From: a virus
Length of the DNA stretch: 43,522 nucleotides
IMG/VR virus record: IMGVR_UViG_3300006802_000176
Coordinates: 1-43,522 of that record
Strand: one strand, 5' to 3'
Shown: positions 8,584-20,733 of the stretch, piece by piece
Numbering within the stretch: position 1 is the stretch's first letter
Layout of the letters: each line of letters opens with the position of its first letter
Translations under genes and position numbers: made by a program
The notes under the pieces: generated by a model
Told to the model about the DNA's origin: nothing
The model's input: only the letters and a program-made list of their open reading frames with translations
Database searches by the model: none

Positions 8584-8795
8584 CAGGCGGCCCTCGGGGA
8601 TGTGTGCTGGTCAACAAAGTCGTCAGCCGTGACCTGGCCGTCGGTTGCCTCACGGATGCGCTTCAGGTTCTCGGCCGAGGGAAAACGCAACCCGTGACGA
8701 TACTTGTGCACGGTCTGCTTCGATCCGATCCCAGCTATCTGGGCGAACTGAGCAGAGGTAAGGCCGGCCTGCCGGAGATAAGCGTCGAGCTTCAT
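8583..8795 (-). CDS. Cro-like HTH regulator, 70 aa
   Basis: Small helix-turn-helix protein: MKLDAYLRQAGLTSAQFAQI, then GIGSKQTVHKYRHGLRFPS as turn and recognition helix, and a short acidic tail. It is divergent from the CI-type repressor and separated from it by the palindromic operator, exactly where Cro sits. I use the ATG at 8795; ATGs at 8804 and 8813 would add 3 or 6 residues but lie inside the operator. None has a clear ribosome site, so a leaderless or near-leaderless message is possible. Likely role: repressor of CI and early transcription during lytic growth. Confidence 0.75.
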   Translation of the reverse strand: MKLDAYLRQAGLTSAQFAQIAGIGSKQTVHKYRHGLRFPSAENLKRIREATDGQVTADDFVDQHTSPRAA

Positions 8796-8804
8796 GGGGA
8801 CCAT

Positions 8805-8834
8805 GGTAACCATAAAGGTTACCCGTGGTCAACA
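8805..8834 (-). promoter_or_regulatory. Immunity operator element, copy 1
   Basis: On the minus strand: TGTTGACC (8834-8827), 3 bases, GGTAACC, TTTAT, GGTTACC (to 8805). The last 19 bases are a perfect 7+5+7 palindrome. The same 30-bp arrangement, including the 3-base gap, recurs at 10604-10633. It lies between the divergent Cro-like and CI-like genes and covers the possible Cro start codons and the -35 area of the cI promoter. It is the likely binding site for CI and/or Cro. Confidence 0.75.
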
Positions 8835-8860
8835 TAATGGTCGCGGACGACGGTCCCCAA
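8831..8860 (-). promoter_or_regulatory. Possible leftward early promoter
   Basis: Minus-strand TTGGGG (8860-8855), 18 bases, TATGTT (8836-8831). Transcription would start near 8824, so the operator palindrome would cover the start site. An alternative -35 is TTGACC (8832-8827) with a poor -10 inside the operator. Either way the operator would block it. Confidence 0.35.
8833..8838 (+). promoter_or_regulatory. Possible -10 of the cI promoter
   Basis: CATAAT, one mismatch from TATAAT, about 40 bases before the chosen cI start. Its -35 region would fall inside the operator palindrome (8805-8823), where no good hexamer is seen, as is usual for a promoter that depends on or is controlled by repressor binding. 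Confidence 0.4.
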
Positions 8861-8878
8861 ACCGGATACGCTCTCCAG

Positions 8879-9583
8879 ATGGAGGAGAAGTCGAAATATC
8901 CAAACGGGCTTGGAGCGGCGATGGAGCGCGCGGGAATGACCGATCCCGATCTCGCGGCACGGGCCGGCACCACCAAGCAGCAGATTTTCAAATTGCGCCG
9001 GGGTGAGCGGAAACTGACCGTGGACTGGGCGCACCGTCTCGCGCCGCACCTTGGCGCCTCGCTCCCCGAGCTGCTCCTGGGCGTGGCTGGCGCGCAGGTC
9101 AAAATGGGCGAAGACGGCCTACGGCGCGGCCCTCGGCCGGAGCCAACGACCGTGCCCGTTGTCATCCCCGAATACGATGTGCGGGCAATGGGCGGGGCCG
9201 GGGCCGAGGACATGGCGCTCGACGGGAACGGCAATCATGTCGTCCTTGCGGAATGGACCGTCCCCGAAGACTACCTCCGCTCCTACACCCCGTCGCCGGC
9301 CGCGGTCCGCATCATCCGCATCGTTGGCGACAGCATGGAGCCGCATTATCCGGCCGGCGATCGCGTGCTGGTCGATACCTCGCACGTCATACCGTCGCCG
9401 CCAGGAGTCTACGTGGTCTGGGACGGCCTTGGCCTGGTGCTGAAGCACGTCGAGGTGCTGGCCGGACGGGTGCCGCTGACGGCCCGCCTGTCGTCCGACA
9501 ATCCCGCCTATGCGCCCTACGAAGTCCCCGTGGCGGACCTGCGGGTTCAGGGGCGCGTCATGGGGAAGTGGATCTGGAAATGA
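8879..9583 (+). CDS. cI: CI/LexA-type phage repressor with S24 peptidase domain
   Basis: 234 residues from the ATG at 8879. The N-terminal helix-turn-helix (residues ~20-45, LAARAGTTKQQIFKLRRGER) binds operator. After a linker with the typical VRAMGGAGAED sequence (~101-111), where Ala-Gly cleavage sites lie in this family, comes the S24/LexA domain: GDSMEPHYPAGD with Ser152, and GLVLKHVEVL with Lys189 as the catalytic dyad. Both residues are present, so SOS/RecA-triggered self-cleavage and prophage induction are expected. Earlier ATGs (8825, 8837) overlap the promoter/operator region and are less likely. It keeps the lysogenic state and heads a four-gene operon. Confidence 0.92.
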   Translation: MEEKSKYPNGLGAAMERAGMTDPDLAARAGTTKQQIFKLRRGERKLTVDWAHRLAPHLGASLPELLLGVAGAQVKMGEDGLRRGPRPEPTTVPVVIPEYDVRAMGGAGAEDMALDGNGNHVVLAEWTVPEDYLRSYTPSPAAVRIIRIVGDSMEPHYPAGDRVLVDTSHVIPSPPGVYVVWDGLGLVLKHVEVLAGRVPLTARLSSDNPAYAPYEVPVADLRVQGRVMGKWIWK

Positions 9584-15658: not shown

Positions 15659-16568
15659 GACCTACCGCTACGGCCCGGCGAAGCCGCGCGCGCCGACTGC
15701 CGAAAGCCTCAACGCCATGATCCGCGCCTATCGCCGATCGCCTAACTACCGCGCGCTCAAACCGTCCTCGCGCTATCGCTATGACCTGTATCTCAGGCCG
15801 CTAGAGGAAATCGGCCACACGCCAGCCGCCAAGCTGTCCAAGCGGAACCTCAACACCTTGCGCGACTGGATAGCCGCCGAACGCGGCAACGGCGCTGCCT
15901 CGCTGTTCGTGGCCGTCTGCGGCGCGTTGTTCAATTGGGCACAAGAGAACGACTGGATCAAGGCCAACCCGGCGTTCAGGCTTAAGGCCCCGACGCTGGG
16001 CGAGATAACCGCTTGGACGCCAGCACAGGCCGAGGCAGCAGAGGCGGCATTGCCGGAACACCTACGCCGCGCCGTCGTGCTGGCGCGCTTCACGGCCCAG
16101 CGGCGGGGCGACCTGTGCGCCATGACATGGGCCGCCTATGACGGCGCGACCATCAAGGTGAAGCAGCAGAAGACGGGCGCGGAACTGGTGATCCCGTGCC
16201 ACCCGCGTTTGAAGGCTGAACTTGATGCCTGGCGCCGCACCGCAACCGCCGTCACGATCCTGACCGGTCAGCTTGGTCGCCCGCTGCGCCCGGCCGCGCT
16301 GGGCGAGGGCATCCGCAAGCATCTCGACGCGGCAGGCTTCCCGCGCGCGCTGTCCATCCACGGGTTGCGGAAGTTGGCCGCCACTGAACTCGCGCAGGCC
16401 GGATGCTCGACCCACGAAATCGCCGCCATCACGGGCCACAAGACGCTGGCCATGGTCCAGCACTACACGGCATCGGTGGATCAGGCCCAGCTAGCCAGCG
16501 CTGCCATCGTGCGTTTGTCGGAAAAGCAAAACGCGAAAAACGACCGAAAGATTAAGTCAGGGTCTTGA
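15609..16568 (+). CDS. int: Tyrosine-type phage integrase
   Basis: 319 residues. A basic, arm-binding-like N terminus (MAKKRTVKRR) is followed by a core-binding SAM-like domain (~35-120). In the catalytic domain (~135-300) all active-site positions are visible: Arg165 in TAQRRGDL, Lys188 in QQKTG, His251 and Arg254 in SIHGLRKL, His277 in TGHKTL, and nucleophile Tyr286 in VQHYTAS. It inserts the phage at attP/attB and excises it with the upstream xis product. It is the last gene of the early-right operon; the attachment site is expected nearby but could not be identified. Confidence 0.93.
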   Translation: MAKKRTVKRRLADGTVKTYRYGPAKPRAPTAESLNAMIRAYRRSPNYRALKPSSRYRYDLYLRPLEEIGHTPAAKLSKRNLNTLRDWIAAERGNGAASLFVAVCGALFNWAQENDWIKANPAFRLKAPTLGEITAWTPAQAEAAEAALPEHLRRAVVLARFTAQRRGDLCAMTWAAYDGATIKVKQQKTGAELVIPCHPRLKAELDAWRRTATAVTILTGQLGRPLRPAALGEGIRKHLDAAGFPRALSIHGLRKLAATELAQAGCSTHEIAAITGHKTLAMVQHYTASVDQAQLASAAIVRLSEKQNAKNDRKIKSGS

Positions 16569-16667
16569 TGTGCGGTAAGACCAGGTTAACGTCGAGGATT
16601 GAAATGATTGAGGAATTTGAGGCAAATGGGGGCGGCGTTGCTTGCTTTGTGCCTGCCGTATGACGCA
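16569..16667. other. Non-coding region after integrase, possible attP neighbourhood
   Basis: No gene seen. Compared with its surroundings the stretch at about 16597-16628 is AT-rich and has short repeats of GATTGA/ATTTGAGG (GATTGAAAT, GATTGAGGA, ATTTGAGGC in a row), as integrase arm sites often do. There is no tRNA-like sequence. Its place next to int is the usual location of attP, but the core cannot be defined without the host sequence. Confidence 0.3.
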
Positions 16668-16700
16668 GAAAAGGCGCCGGAGGCATAACCCCCGGCGCCT
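16668..16700 (-). terminator. Rho-independent terminator of the late operon
   Basis: AGGCGCCGG (16672-16680) and CCGGCGCCT (16692-16700) form a 9-bp perfect stem with an 11-base loop. Read leftward the stem is followed immediately by TTTT (16671-16668). It lies after the muramidase gene, so it ends the late transcript. It also separates this from the converging early-right operon. Confidence 0.85.
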
Positions 16701-16772
16701 GTGCTGGTGCATCCGCTCCACCCCGACCCAGCCAATGGAGGCGGCTCTGCGTGGGGCCGCAGCCCGTGGACT

Positions 16773-17291
16773 TTACTCGCGCAAGGCTGCCGCTTCCAAT
16801 GCCTTCGCCACCCGCCGCTCAGTCCGCGCCATCCACCCCCGGCCAAAGAAGCCGAAGTTGGCCAGCGTCGCGTAATACGTCCGCTGCAAATCCGACAGCA
16901 GCCGCACCATCTCAGCCGCCGGAACAGCCCGCACCGCCGCCAGTGTGACCGGCCCAATCGCGCCATCCTCGGCCACGCCCGCCGCGCGTTGCAGCATCTT
17001 CGCGGACCGGCCAGGCCCCGCGTTCACGGCGAAGTCGAACACCATCAGGTCTACGCCCGCCGGTAGGTCAGCGCCACGGATCGGCTGCCAATACCCGGCG
17101 CGGTAGATGCGGGCCACGTCGGCATCGCTGATATGGCGGAGCGCGTCCTCGGTCGCGTCTGGCACCCAGCGGCGATAGGTGGCGAGCGTGATGCCTTTGT
17201 TGGTCGCACCGCCGGGGTCGCGCGGATCGTCCACAAAGCAGCCTTCCTGCTGGAGCGTGAAGGCTAGGCAGGAGAGGAAGCGGTCGGTCAT
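16773..17291 (-). CDS. GH108 endolysin (N-acetylmuramidase)
   Basis: 172 residues. The N-terminal ~85 residues carry the glycoside hydrolase 108 signature: LQQEGCFVDDPRDPGG followed by ATNKGITLATYRRW, with catalytic Glu16. The usual EGG is EGC here. The C-terminal ~85 residues match the peptidoglycan-binding part typical of the family (FDFAVNAGPGRSAKMLQ, then EDGAIGPVTLAAV). It cuts cell-wall glycan strands to release virions. There is no signal peptide, so a holin is needed for export. It is the last late gene, ending before the terminator. A 700-base insertion of rightward genes separates it from the holin-like genes. Confidence 0.9.
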   Translation of the reverse strand: MTDRFLSCLAFTLQQEGCFVDDPRDPGGATNKGITLATYRRWVPDATEDALRHISDADVARIYRAGYWQPIRGADLPAGVDLMVFDFAVNAGPGRSAKMLQRAAGVAEDGAIGPVTLAAVRAVPAAEMVRLLSDLQRTYYATLANFGFFGRGWMARTERRVAKALEAAALRE

Positions 17292-17304
17292 GTGTCACCC
17301 GAAA

Positions 17305-17359
17305 AAGTGATGCACGGTGCAAATTATCCATTGACGCGGCCAGATGCACGGTGCATAGT
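17305..17359 (+). promoter_or_regulatory. Promoter with two identical operators for the moron cassette
   Basis: TTGACG (17331-17336), 17 bases, CATAGT (17354-17359). The 11-base near-palindrome TGCACGGTGCA occurs at 17311-17321, upstream of the -35, and at 17345-17355, between -35 and -10. Both copies are preceded by GA. Their centres are 34 bases apart, about three helical turns. This looks like an autoregulated promoter; the HTH protein at 17830 is the obvious candidate repressor. Confidence 0.75.
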
Positions 17360-17386
17360 GCGTTCATCAGAGAGGGAGATACGCAG

Positions 17387-17572
17387 ATGACCATCACCAC
17401 CTGGACCATCGTTCGTGAGGGCTTTTGCTTCCGGGCAGTCAACGCCGCCACCAACTACCGTTCTTCGCTGGTCACCTCCGCGTCGCAGGCTGGCTTGATT
17501 ATCGAACGGAAGGCCGGAAAGGACGCTCACCGCGCAGCCGCCGCCGAGTTTATCGCCAAGGCCAGCGCCTAA
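17387..17572 (+). CDS. Moron cassette protein 1, 61 aa, unknown
   Basis: Small protein of unknown function (begins MTITTWTIVREGFCFRAVNA, ends AAAEFIAKASA). A short beta region is followed by two helices. The ATG at 17387 has GAGGGAGA about 8-15 bases upstream. It is the first gene behind the promoter with twin operators, and it runs against the flanking late genes. No resemblance to known antitoxins or exclusion proteins could be recognised. Confidence 0.65.
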   Translation: MTITTWTIVREGFCFRAVNAATNYRSSLVTSASQAGLIIERKAGKDAHRAAAAEFIAKASA

Positions 17573-17574
17573 CC

Positions 17575-17590
17575 GGGGGCTTCGGCCCCC
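17575..17590 (+). other. GC hairpin with UUCG tetraloop
   Basis: GGGGGC, TTCG, GCCCCC: a 6-bp stem closed by the very stable C(UUCG)G tetraloop, two bases after the stop codon of the first cassette gene and 22 bases before the next start. There is no T run, so it is more likely a processing or stability element setting the ratio between cassette genes than a terminator. Confidence 0.6.
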
Positions 17591-17611
17591 ACCAACCGAG
17601 GGAGACGACAA

Positions 17612-17833
17612 ATGCGCCGCACCAATACCGCCACCGAAATCGTGCAGTCCGGTGAGTTCGTGAAGGCTGGCAAGAAGCGTTACATCCACGACGAAACCGG
17701 CCTGGAAATCGCCTACGATCATAACGCTTGGGTTTGGCGCACCCCGGACGGGCTGGGCTTCACGGTGCTGCATGGCGCGGTCTCTTGGCTTCGCCAGTGC
17801 ATCGCCAAGGCCGCCGCTCAGGTGGCTGCATGA
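17612..17833 (+). CDS. Moron cassette protein 2, 73 aa, unknown
   Basis: Small, beta-rich protein (FVKAGKKRYIHDETGLEIAY, then AWVWRTPDGLGFTVLHGAV) with a short helical end. The ribosome site GAGGGAGA is 8-15 bases before the ATG, matching that of the first cassette gene, so both may stem from one duplication or assembly. Its stop overlaps the start of the HTH gene (ATGA). Function unknown. Confidence 0.65.
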   Translation: MRRTNTATEIVQSGEFVKAGKKRYIHDETGLEIAYDHNAWVWRTPDGLGFTVLHGAVSWLRQCIAKAAAQVAA

Positions 17834-18063
17834 CCCCCGAAACCTTCCGAACCCGCCTGCAAGCCTTGGGTCTAACCACCCAAGGCTTCGCCGCGTTGGT
17901 CGGCATAGACCGGACCACCGTGGCGTATTGGGGCCGCGCGCGGTCTGGCCGTGGCGTGCAGGAGTTCCCTGCATGGGTCGGGCTGCTGCTGACCGCATGG
18001 GAGGCTAACCCTGCTTGCTCACCACCCCAATCCCACCAGCTACCAGCAGCCCAATCGTCGTAA
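17830..18063 (+). CDS. HTH regulator of the moron cassette, 77 aa
   Basis: 77 residues. Residues ~3-45 form a helix-turn-helix (FRTRLQALGLTTQGFAALVG, then IDRTTVAYWGRARSG), like those of small XRE-type or plasmid-stability regulators. The C-terminal 25 residues are probably disordered (PPQSHQLPAAQSS). It starts at the ATG overlapping the previous stop. The last 59 bases overlap, on the opposite strand, the 3' end of the holin-like gene at 18005. I infer that it binds the TGCACGGTGCA sites in the cassette promoter. Confidence 0.7.
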   Translation: MTPETFRTRLQALGLTTQGFAALVGIDRTTVAYWGRARSGRGVQEFPAWVGLLLTAWEANPACSPPQSHQLPAAQSS

Positions 18064-18175
18064 TCGCCTCCGCTTGGTCGGGCGCAAAAGCCCGGCCCAT
18101 GACGACGCCCGCCAGCGTCAGCAGCGCGCCCCATGTGTTGCGTTCCGTCAGCCGGTCGAGAATCCATGCCTTCAT
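18005..18175 (-). CDS. Holin-like small membrane protein, 56 aa
   Basis: 56 residues. Two hydrophobic segments, TWGALLTLAGVVMG (~14-27) and AITTIGLLVAGGIGVV (~37-52), separated by the polar loop RAFAPDQAE, fit a short class II-type holin or holin-like protein. It forms the membrane lesion that lets the endolysin reach the wall. It follows a coiled-coil membrane protein by one base and precedes, in the leftward direction, the muramidase. The start ATG at 18175 is used; the 5-residue longer frame overlaps the previous gene. Confidence 0.6.
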   Translation of the reverse strand: MKAWILDRLTERNTWGALLTLAGVVMGRAFAPDQAEAITTIGLLVAGGIGVVSKQG

Positions 18176-18176
18176 G

Positions 18177-18539
18177 TCAACGCCCTCCAAACAGTGGCCA
18201 GTGATCCCAAACCCACGCGCCGATTGCGGCGCACGCCCCGGCGAGCATCCATCCGATCTTGATGACCCAGCCGAACGCCTGCTGGTTGGCGAGCACGCGG
18301 TCTAGTTTGGCGTCCATCGCACCTGCGGTGGCTTCATGCCGGTCCTGGCGGGCGGCCATATCGTCCATGCGGGCCTGAAGCTGGCCGAGTTCGCGCGATA
18401 TCTGGCGCGTCGTTTCGACCTGTTGGCGAAGCAGCTCATCCACGGCAGCGGCCTCCTGCTGAGAGCGCGGCCACCATTCCGGTGCCCGCATCGCCGCCGC
18501 GCTCACGGCACGCGGCTGGTAACGTTCGGATGTCGGCAT
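18177..18539 (-). CDS. Coiled-coil protein with C-terminal membrane helix, 120 aa
   Basis: 120 residues. A coiled coil (~45-90; VETTRQISRELGQLQARMDD, then AMDAKLDRVLANQQ) leads into one C-terminal membrane helix (WVIKIGWMLAGACAAIGAWV). This build resembles lysis-associated XhlA-like proteins or antiholin partners. Being immediately upstream of the holin-like gene, a role in lysis timing is likely. The ATG at 18539 has GAGGA about 10 bases upstream. No Rz/Rz1 pair was found in the region. Confidence 0.6.
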   Translation of the reverse strand: MPTSERYQPRAVSAAAMRAPEWWPRSQQEAAAVDELLRQQVETTRQISRELGQLQARMDDMAARQDRHEATAGAMDAKLDRVLANQQAFGWVIKIGWMLAGACAAIGAWVWDHWPLFGGR

Positions 18540-18603
18540 GAGGGTCTGATCCTCAGTCGTGCGTGGGATCGCTGCCCGATTACCGCTGGACTCGGTTCCA
18601 GGG

Positions 18604-20733
18604 TTAGGTCTCGTCCGGCGGCGTTTCTTCTTCCGCTCCAGCCAGGTCGTCCTGCGGCAGTTCCAGCGTCGCGATGGATCGGTATGTCGCTTTTGCCGAC
18701 ACGGCCCGGACCGGCGAGGCGTTCGCTGGTATCGTAAGGCTGATCTGAATCGCAAAGTTGACGCTGTCGATGCTCCAGGCCGGCGTGATACCGTCGAGCC
18801 ACGACAAGCCGGTCCCATTCCCTTGCGTGAAGCTGGGCGTCGCTACCGACGAGCCAACGCGAAATTCAGGAGCGGCCGAAGATGAGATTCTTCGAAATGA
18901 CGCGCTAAACGTCCAATCTCGGAATCCTTGGCTATCATTGTCGAGAATTGTCAGCGTGCCGTCGATCCGCCCGCGCTGGGTGTTGCCGACGACCATCTGA
19001 TTGTCCGGTCCCGGCGCCGACCCGTCGGTCGTCAGGACAGCGACCGTGGAAGTTGTCGTATTTCCGGCGATGTTCCGAAATACCGGCACTGCGCCCTGGA
19101 TGACGCCCGTCTGCTGGAGCGTCGAATCCGGGATGACGCCATCGGAAAAGCCCCGGATGCCGAACCGGTAGTTCTCTGCCTGATTGAGGTTCCGCATGTG
19201 CGCGCGCCCGACCAGGTCGGACGATATGCCTTCCTCGGTCGTGCCGTTGTTCTCAAACCGCACTCCGTAGATGACGTTCCCGACAGGCTTCAGCGAGGCG
19301 GCCTTGCTGACATAGCTCCATTGCGTCAGCGTTGGCGGCGACACCCCATAGGCATAAGAGCCGTCTGTCGCCTCGCCGGATTCGTGGGTCATCCGCGTCG
19401 TGCCGAACGTGTCGGTTCCGGTGGCGCTGACATAGACCCGATAGACCTGACTGGCTGGGTCGTAGACGGCGATATATCGAGCGCGCGATGAATAGGCGGC
19501 CCCCGGCACCCACACCCGGAGGCCGACCTGCGACGTGACGACGCCCCAATAGCGGGAGTTCCGGATGTGCCCGCCGAAGATTTGATTGTAGGACCCGAAG
19601 CCGCCGAACGCCGACATCATGACCAGGCCGCGCCGGACGAATTTCGTCTCCAAACCATAAATCTGGTTGAACGATCCGAACATGCCGATACCGCCGCCCA
19701 GGCCGTAACTGGCACGGTGGCCGCGGATGATGTTGTGGTCACCGTTGATCGTGCCCGACCCGTCGCGACTGCCGATCGTCTCGTTGTCCTCAAAGGTGTT
19801 GTCGTAGCCTTCGGCCGTGCAACTGAAGATGTCGCCGCCGTAGGTCGTCACCTCGTCGCCGTTCTCGTCATAGACGTGCTTGTCGGGGAACAGGTAGTTG
19901 CCGGTTCGGAGAAGCTGTTCGGCGGTGAGGTAGTCTTCCTCAACCCACTTTTTGCCGCGGATGATCTTGTTCCCGTGCGGGCCGGTGCCAGTTCCGAGGT
20001 TCGTTGTGGCGTCCATGTTCAAGCCGGTCTGAATGTTCCGGCCGCCAAAACCATAGATCAGGTTGTCAGATGCCGTGCCGTCCAGCCTGATCAACGTGCC
20101 ATACAGTTCATTTGCATGGATGTTCTCAAACCGGCAGCGGTCGCCGAACGTGCGGATGAAGCTGTTACCCGTGTCCAGATACAGGTCCTGGAAGATGCAG
20201 TCGTCAGCGCCTTCGCTCAGCAGGATGGCGAAGTTGGTGGACGCCATCGAAGACGCGAACCGTAGGTTCTTCAGCACCATGCCAGGCCCTGCGATGGTCA
20301 GGACCGTAGATGTCACACTCATCCTGATGACTGGATTCCCGAGGCCGATGAACGTCGCGCCTTCAAGGCCGGTAAGTGCGGTTCCAAGACGATACTCGAC
20401 AGGCGCAGGGGGGACGTATATTGGCCGCCCGCCATTCTCCTTGGAATAGGTCGCAGCGCGCGCAAACATGGCGCTATCGTTGACCACGCCATCGCCGAAC
20501 GTGTCTCCGGCCCCGGCAAACCGCGCGATGTTCACGCCGTCCAGTAGGTCTTGAGCGAGCGAGCGGGCGTTCGTCGTGCCGCTAAACAGGACCGGCGTTG
20601 CGGCAGTCTGCGACTTGACTGTCGCGCCCGTGACCGAGCGATACGGTTGCCCGGTTGCACCGCGCTGCACCAGCAGAACGTCGGTGTCGAACAGGTCCGT
20701 CGTGGCCGAGTAGTCGCCGAATTGCTTGCCCAT
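18604..20733 (-). CDS. Tailspike with right-handed parallel beta-helix
   Basis: 709 residues. The N-terminal ~60 residues match the adaptor module of many tail fibres (DYSATTDLFDTDVLLVQRG). Next comes a pectate-lyase-like beta-helix (~68-430), visible as repeating strands with asparagine turns: DDCIFQDLYLD, DRCRFENIHANE, DNTFEDNETIGS, HNIIRGHRASYG, FNQIYGLETKF, YNQIFGGHIRN. The C-terminal ~250 residues are probably trimerisation and receptor domains. Such spikes bind and often cut capsule, LPS or exopolysaccharide. The catalytic residues cannot be pointed out from sequence alone. It is last in the tail-tip block, so it probably fixes host range. Confidence 0.85.
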   Translation of the reverse strand: MGKQFGDYSATTDLFDTDVLLVQRGATGQPYRSVTGATVKSQTAATPVLFSGTTNARSLAQDLLDGVNIARFAGAGDTFGDGVVNDSAMFARAATYSKENGGRPIYVPPAPVEYRLGTALTGLEGATFIGLGNPVIRMSVTSTVLTIAGPGMVLKNLRFASSMASTNFAILLSEGADDCIFQDLYLDTGNSFIRTFGDRCRFENIHANELYGTLIRLDGTASDNLIYGFGGRNIQTGLNMDATTNLGTGTGPHGNKIIRGKKWVEEDYLTAEQLLRTGNYLFPDKHVYDENGDEVTTYGGDIFSCTAEGYDNTFEDNETIGSRDGSGTINGDHNIIRGHRASYGLGGGIGMFGSFNQIYGLETKFVRRGLVMMSAFGGFGSYNQIFGGHIRNSRYWGVVTSQVGLRVWVPGAAYSSRARYIAVYDPASQVYRVYVSATGTDTFGTTRMTHESGEATDGSYAYGVSPPTLTQWSYVSKAASLKPVGNVIYGVRFENNGTTEEGISSDLVGRAHMRNLNQAENYRFGIRGFSDGVIPDSTLQQTGVIQGAVPVFRNIAGNTTTSTVAVLTTDGSAPGPDNQMVVGNTQRGRIDGTLTILDNDSQGFRDWTFSASFRRISSSAAPEFRVGSSVATPSFTQGNGTGLSWLDGITPAWSIDSVNFAIQISLTIPANASPVRAVSAKATYRSIATLELPQDDLAGAEEETPPDET

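Follow-up and report, generated by a model that had tools for sequence, protein, structure and literature searches.

A reversed, probably autoregulated cassette between the lysis genes of a temperate phage resembles acr-aca operons

Results

Three rightward genes among leftward lysis genes

The window, by which we mean the whole stretch of DNA that we analyzed, is a linear IMG/VR record of 43,522 bp. Across its length it has the content of a temperate phage: the terminase-to-tail genes and the lysis block are read leftward, and a repressor-to-integrase block is read rightward. At 17305-18063, three genes on the + strand (g1, g2, and g3, which encode 61, 73, and 77 amino acids) are flanked by a leftward GH108 endolysin and by a leftward gene of 56 codons (Table 1). 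We call this last gene holin-like on the basis of its position and homology only; it matches no family. There are no RNA families or tRNAs within the window.

Codon usage supports all three genes. With a score that was trained on 15 genes of the window, g1 scored +0.34, g2 scored +0.37, and residues 1-60 of g3 scored +0.17, while the antisense and alternative frames that we tested as whole ORFs had negative scores. A 224-amino-acid antisense frame (17324-17998) was ruled out as a gene by its score of -0.46. The ATG of g3, at 17830, lies in a 4-bp overlap with the end of g2 (ATGA), and g3 is the ATG-started portion of an open frame of 111 amino acids. The gap between g1 and g2 contains a hairpin whose stability is not above that of shuffled sequence (z = 0.51), and which could reduce downstream expression.

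Table 1. Features of the cassette and its flanks (window coordinates), with comparable cassettes in other phages (coordinates within the named contigs)
Feature	Position	Strand	Description
GH108 endolysin, left flank	16773-17291	-	PF05838, E = 2.5e-26
Putative operator, IR2-like, upstream of -35	17311-17321	.	TGCACGGTGCA, exact 5-1-5 palindrome
Sigma-70-like promoter	17331-17359	+	TTGACG-N17-CATAGT; by consensus only
Putative operator, IR1-like, inside core promoter	17345-17355	.	TGCACGGTGCA; occupies the spacer and shares 2 bp with the start of the -10
g1	17387-17572	+	61 aa, basic, pI 10.0; candidate counter-defense protein
Hairpin in g1-g2 gap	17575-17590	+	GGGGGC-TTCG-GCCCCC; T-run absent
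g2	17612-17833	+	73 aa, pI 9.0; candidate counter-defense protein
g3	17830-18063	+	Small HTH protein of 77 aa with a predicted fold like that of Aca1; a probable autorepressor
Holin-like gene, right flank	18005-18175	-	56 aa; 3' end overlapped by g3
Aeromonas/Vibrio phage cassettes	L184 2788-3177; L187 2235-2677; L189 2229-2671; L188 2250-2719		Look like uncharacterized acr-aca-type loci

A promoter-like site with a duplicated palindrome

The only sigma-70-like site within 16500-18700, where 0.3 are expected, lies just ahead of g1, and it is accompanied by two copies of the palindrome TGCACGGTGCA, 34 bp apart. An earlier note on this DNA had described three rightward genes within leftward lysis genes, and the gene calls, codon scores, and flanks bear this out. 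It had also placed one of two identical sites upstream of the -35, which is correct, and the other in the spacer, which needs amending: that copy takes up the spacer and continues into the -10.

Within the 43.5-kb window, TGCACNGTGCA occurs in these two copies only, as compared to 0.06 expected. Pairs of identical 5-1-5 palindromes no more than 60 bp apart are not so rare: the window has two, and 22 of 300 dinucleotide shuffles have at least one, so the pair by itself is not extraordinary. (The window's other pair, TTCCGACGGAA, has copies 35 bp apart at 1817-1862, within the leftward gene 1430-2392.) What gives the TGCACGGTGCA pair its meaning is its position, at the promoter ahead of a small HTH operon.

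In the phage's own immunity region (8591-9583), the palindrome is a different one, GGTAACC..GGTTACC. Because of this difference, the cassette appears, from its sequence, to be controlled by a private switch, and we think it unlikely that the phage's main repressor controls it.

We also searched viral contigs for the operator pair. Sixteen contigs matched, some of them with tandem arrays, and none of the 16 encodes relatives of g1, g2, or g3. A phage repressor region (L008, 4668-5690) has TGCACAGTGCA palindromes around TTGACG that resemble the window's operator. Its HTH gene is unrelated, and we take the likeness to be convergence.

The cassette looks like an insertion

In two contigs (L093 and L071), relatives of the holin-like gene abut the GH108 endolysin, the stop codon of the one gene overlapping the start codon of the next. 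In the window, the start of the endolysin and the stop of the holin-like gene are 713 bp apart. By its tail genes, the closest annotated relative is Synechococcus phage MinM1 (one tail protein is 36% identical over 91% of its length); its integrase, endolysin, and next gene are arranged as in the window, and its lysis genes are contiguous, with no insert. Since the lysis genes touch in distant relatives and the three genes are supported by codon usage, the cassette looks like an insertion between the lysis genes. Because these relatives are distant, the empty site is deduced from gene order rather than from aligned DNA. We found no close empty or filled site: in 50 records with relatives of the major capsid protein, this endolysin is absent, and so is any credible g3. 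Nor did the whole cassette show DNA similarity to phages.

The end of g3 is also suggestive. Its last 17 codons (residues about 61-77) lie on the opposite strand of the holin-like gene and, at -1.09 per codon, look non-coding by the codon score. This suggests that the frame of g3 runs out of the insert and into its new neighbor, the holin-like gene.

As with morons, then, there is an extra unit of genes with its own promoter (by consensus) that is absent from the same place in distant relatives. We saw no intrinsic terminator of its own on the + strand. These features, together with the repeated palindrome, support the idea of a self-contained and probably autoregulated moron-type cassette in the lysis genes. 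A moron could be expressed in the lysogen, where it might exclude superinfecting phages or improve the fitness of the host. A promoter-like site, an orientation opposite to the late genes, and insertion among late genes would all fit, yet these are general features of morons, and with autorepression at two operators one would expect a short burst of expression that then falls to a low level. Also, there was no match in PADLOC, and no family match points to an exclusion protein. So we consider this function improbable. The earlier note had offered superinfection exclusion, lysogenic conversion, or anti-phage activity as guesses; we found nothing that speaks specifically for any of these, and they are less well supported than counter-defense.

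The two small proteins

We found no match for g1 or g2 in Pfam, PHROG, NCBIfam, or PADLOC, and thus no Acr, toxin, or defense family, and no match among PDB sequences (the libraries that we used are not a complete Acr database). The absence of a family match says little, because known Acrs often lack one: AcrIF7 itself has no match in NCBIfam or Pfam in our hands. There were no close relatives of g1 or g2 in viral or genome contigs, as judged by pattern-based scanning, which is limited for short proteins, and none on plasmids. Any resemblance of g1 or g2 to AcrIF1 or to the proteins of the Aeromonas cassettes described below was not convincingly above that of shuffles. The model of g2, which is of low to moderate confidence, is a five-stranded sheet with a C-terminal helix, and structure searches with it gave nothing significant.

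The one homolog of g1 is QIG68231.1 (EVB56_040) from Rhizobium phage RHph_Y1_10, which is 62% identical. The two genes differ at 9, 15, and 31 first, second, and third codon positions, respectively. As the differences are mostly at third positions, it appears that g1 is under selection at the protein level. The earlier view that the first two proteins belong to no recognizable family thus holds for g2, for which no search returned a relative, but not quite for g1. A search for the small proteins and the operator in other phages, as had been proposed, yields the g1 homolog and the 16 operator-pair contigs, but nothing for g2.

In RHph_Y1_10, the homolog is part of an early operon, with the repressor region on one side and the integrase on the other. 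This raises the question of whether the cassette is a displaced fragment of an early operon, with small early genes for housekeeping or host takeover and a Cro-like regulator, that recombined into the lysis region. To the extent that g1 is concerned, its homolog's location agrees with this idea, and with the earlier proviso that the genes might turn out to be ordinary parts of another operon. However, beside its g1 homolog RHph_Y1_10 has neither a convincing g2- or g3-like gene nor a palindrome of the TGCACGGTGCA type. Furthermore, the cassette has a promoter-like site of its own, and its operator is unlike the palindrome of the immunity region. We think that displacement from an early operon is unlikely, although we rank it ahead of an exclusion or fitness moron.

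The HTH protein

Family matches for g3 are weak: PHROG 8898 (phrog_8898) with E = 1.6e-4 and, below the cutoff, the Pfam family Antitoxin Xre-like HTH with E = 0.0047. Pattern-based scanning, with the same limitation for short proteins, found no close relatives in viral or genome contigs, and plasmids gave generic HTH matches only. We modeled g3 with AlphaFold2 from its sequence alone; the model shows five helices, with a pLDDT of 74 overall and of about 80 over residues 1-60. When we compared this model to 350,542 PDB chains with Foldseek, Aca1 from phage JBD30 took ranks 1, 2, 4, 5, 7, and 11. The matches to 7vjm, 7fa3, 7c0g, and 7vjn have TM scores of about 0.65/0.68, with deviations of 2.2-2.6 Å over 58-60 columns. 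At 0.058, the Foldseek E value is weak, and the ranks just behind are taken by HigA2 antitoxins and restriction controller proteins, so the match is partly that of a generic small HTH fold.

An ungapped alignment of 59 residues between g3 and Aca1 has z = 5.1, which is reached by about 0.001 of shuffles. As for membership in the Aca1 family, hmmsearch gave E = 7.8, which is level with shuffles; BLASTP found no match to Aca1; and hhalign gave a probability of 28%, which is not significant similarity. Given that the structural E value is not significant and that family membership by sequence failed, we describe g3 as Aca-like and do not claim that it is an Aca1. From its model, g3 probably looks and works like an Aca.

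Small HTH proteins are also found as antitoxins. If the cassette were a toxin-antitoxin or addiction module, then g2 or g1 or both would be small basic toxins, and g3 would be the antitoxin and an autorepressor that binds its own promoter. The 4-bp overlap of g2 and g3 would suit such a module, as would the HigA2 antitoxins among the next structural neighbors of g3 and its sub-threshold match to Antitoxin Xre-like HTH. Against this, type II modules have a recognizable toxin beside the HTH gene, and neither g1 nor g2 matches a toxin family; g2 does not have a toxin-like fold, insofar as its model can be relied on; and the homolog of g1 occurs without g2 or g3. Of the three alternatives we have discussed, this one seems to us the least probable, and quite improbable.

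Among phages, the nearest relatives of g3 by primary sequence are HTH proteins of Aeromonas phages 56, 62AhydR11PP, and 4_D05 (the best is 56gp70, 40% over 48 amino acids). Each of these phages has a reversed cassette at one site among the tail genes, in which a constant HTH gene of 58 codons comes last and the gene before it is unlike in each of the three. As in the window, the HTH gene is terminal and the cassette is opposed to the late genes, and the gene ahead of the HTH gene varies at the same site. The differences are that these cassettes are in tail genes and that their function is putative. In acr-aca loci, a constant HTH gene usually stands behind exchangeable small genes, and the Aeromonas and Vibrio cassettes look like uncharacterized loci of this type. 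The 4_D05 copy of the HTH has a match to Aca2_YdiL that is below the cutoff (E = 0.002). A related HTH gene follows a small ORF in Vibrio phage IKEMa6-1.

Discussion

We infer that the closest functional match to the cassette is an acr-aca operon, and that it is a new autoregulated cassette of the Aca type, whose two small proteins are candidates for counter-defense. The anatomical case is strong. In acr-aca operons, small variable ORFs are followed by a terminal HTH gene, whose product has 55-79 amino acids in most Aca families (PMC9765179 Table 1). Aca proteins repress their own operons via inverted repeats (PMC9410906; PMC9410881): one repeat is always in the core promoter (PMC9410906), and for Aca1, 2, 4, 5, 9, and 10, a similar second repeat lies outside it (PMC9410906; PMC9410881). 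AcaFinder looks for genes on one strand with spacing under 250 bp that encode proteins of under 200 amino acids and end with an HTH protein of under 150 amino acids. The cassette has short genes on one strand that end in a small HTH gene. Judging by sequence only, it also has an inverted repeat in the core promoter and a similar second one outside. Neither g1 nor g2 is homologous to a known Acr.

The AcrIF1-Aca1 operon of JBD30 is a useful comparison. It encodes Aca1, which ranked first among the structural matches of g3, its cargo and aca genes overlap, and its promoter contains two near-identical odd palindromes that share a GCAC/GTGC core with the window's operator. The sites of JBD30 Aca1 are GGCACA-N-TGTGCC, twice, and AGGAACA-N-TGTTCCT occurs twice upstream of the Aca1 homolog of phage TC7. 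The JBD30, TC7, and window operators are all odd palindromes with a 1-bp center, like ATGCAC-G-GTGCA. On the other hand, the window's half-sites are one base nearer to the center, the copies are 34 bp apart rather than 25 bp, the JBD30 cassette lies in head genes and runs in the same direction as they do, and the similarity in sequence is too low for family membership. In TC7 (L196, 1209-1248), the near-identical palindromes AGGAACAATGTTCCT and AGGAACATTGTTCCT are 25 bp apart, which is the JBD30 spacing, and the half-site differs.

The location of the cassette has a closer parallel. In Pseudomonas phage vB_PaeP_Tr60_Ab31 (L195, 882-1284), AcrIF7-Aca1 is reversed relative to its two flanks, a lysis protein and the endolysin. 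As in the window, small cargo is followed by a terminal small HTH gene, and both run backwards at a junction of a lysis gene with the endolysin. That cassette has one cargo gene instead of two, its cargo is a known Acr, and its HTH protein is Aca1-like by sequence. We did not find a GCAC..GTGC repeat pair upstream of it, so the operator varies within the Aca1 family. Other Pseudomonas phages also carry Aca1-type cassettes reversed in or beside lysis genes, unlike the head-gene site of JBD30. For example, AcrIF1-Aca1 of Flu_PA14_4 (L193, 1170-2098) is reversed between the spanin and the holin/antiholin, and an Aca1-type cassette of VB_EV13 (L194, 1039-1725) adjoins a lytic enzyme gene.

If the cassette works like these operons, then upon injection the promoter, with no repressor bound, would be active immediately, and g1 and g2 would be made and would inhibit a host defense, either CRISPR-Cas or another system. 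g3 would be the last product of the same mRNA; it would dimerize and bind the two TGCACGGTGCA palindromes. Bound g3 would block RNA polymerase, and the operon would stay low afterwards, including in the lysogen. Because the cassette is inserted backwards between the holin-like gene and the endolysin, late leftward transcription would pass through it in antisense.

Some parts of this scenario seem more secure than others. Very probably, g3 represses the promoter of the cassette. The case for g1 and g2 as counter-defense proteins has less support than that for binding and repression by g3. Still, we favor counter-defense, because the predicted fold of g3, the layout of the operators, the gene order, and the region and orientation of the insertion are like those of AcrIF7-Aca1 and AcrIF1-Aca1. 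By this analogy, we would give an even chance to the cassette being a moron-type operon for counter-defense. We are more tentative about whether g3 is the first member of a new Aca family that has TGCACGGTGCA as its operator and g1 and g2 represent two new families of counter-defense proteins, the first of them shared with a Rhizobium phage. That CRISPR-Cas specifically is the target of g1 or g2 is more doubtful again.

Counter-defense genes for the most part lack sequence relationship to one another, and it is through their neighbors that they are discovered. Because the layout of the cassette is that of known anti-CRISPR operons, g1 and g2 are worth testing as inhibitors of bacterial immunity. 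The source phage has few close relatives in the collections that we searched. If our proposal is true, then this phage would provide a new autoregulator with its site on the DNA, as well as two candidate inhibitors that are also new, and the junction of the lysis genes would gain support as a recurring insertion site for reversed counter-defense cassettes. One could then search for more counter-defense genes with promoters of the TGCACGGTGCA type and terminal HTH genes like g3 as bait.
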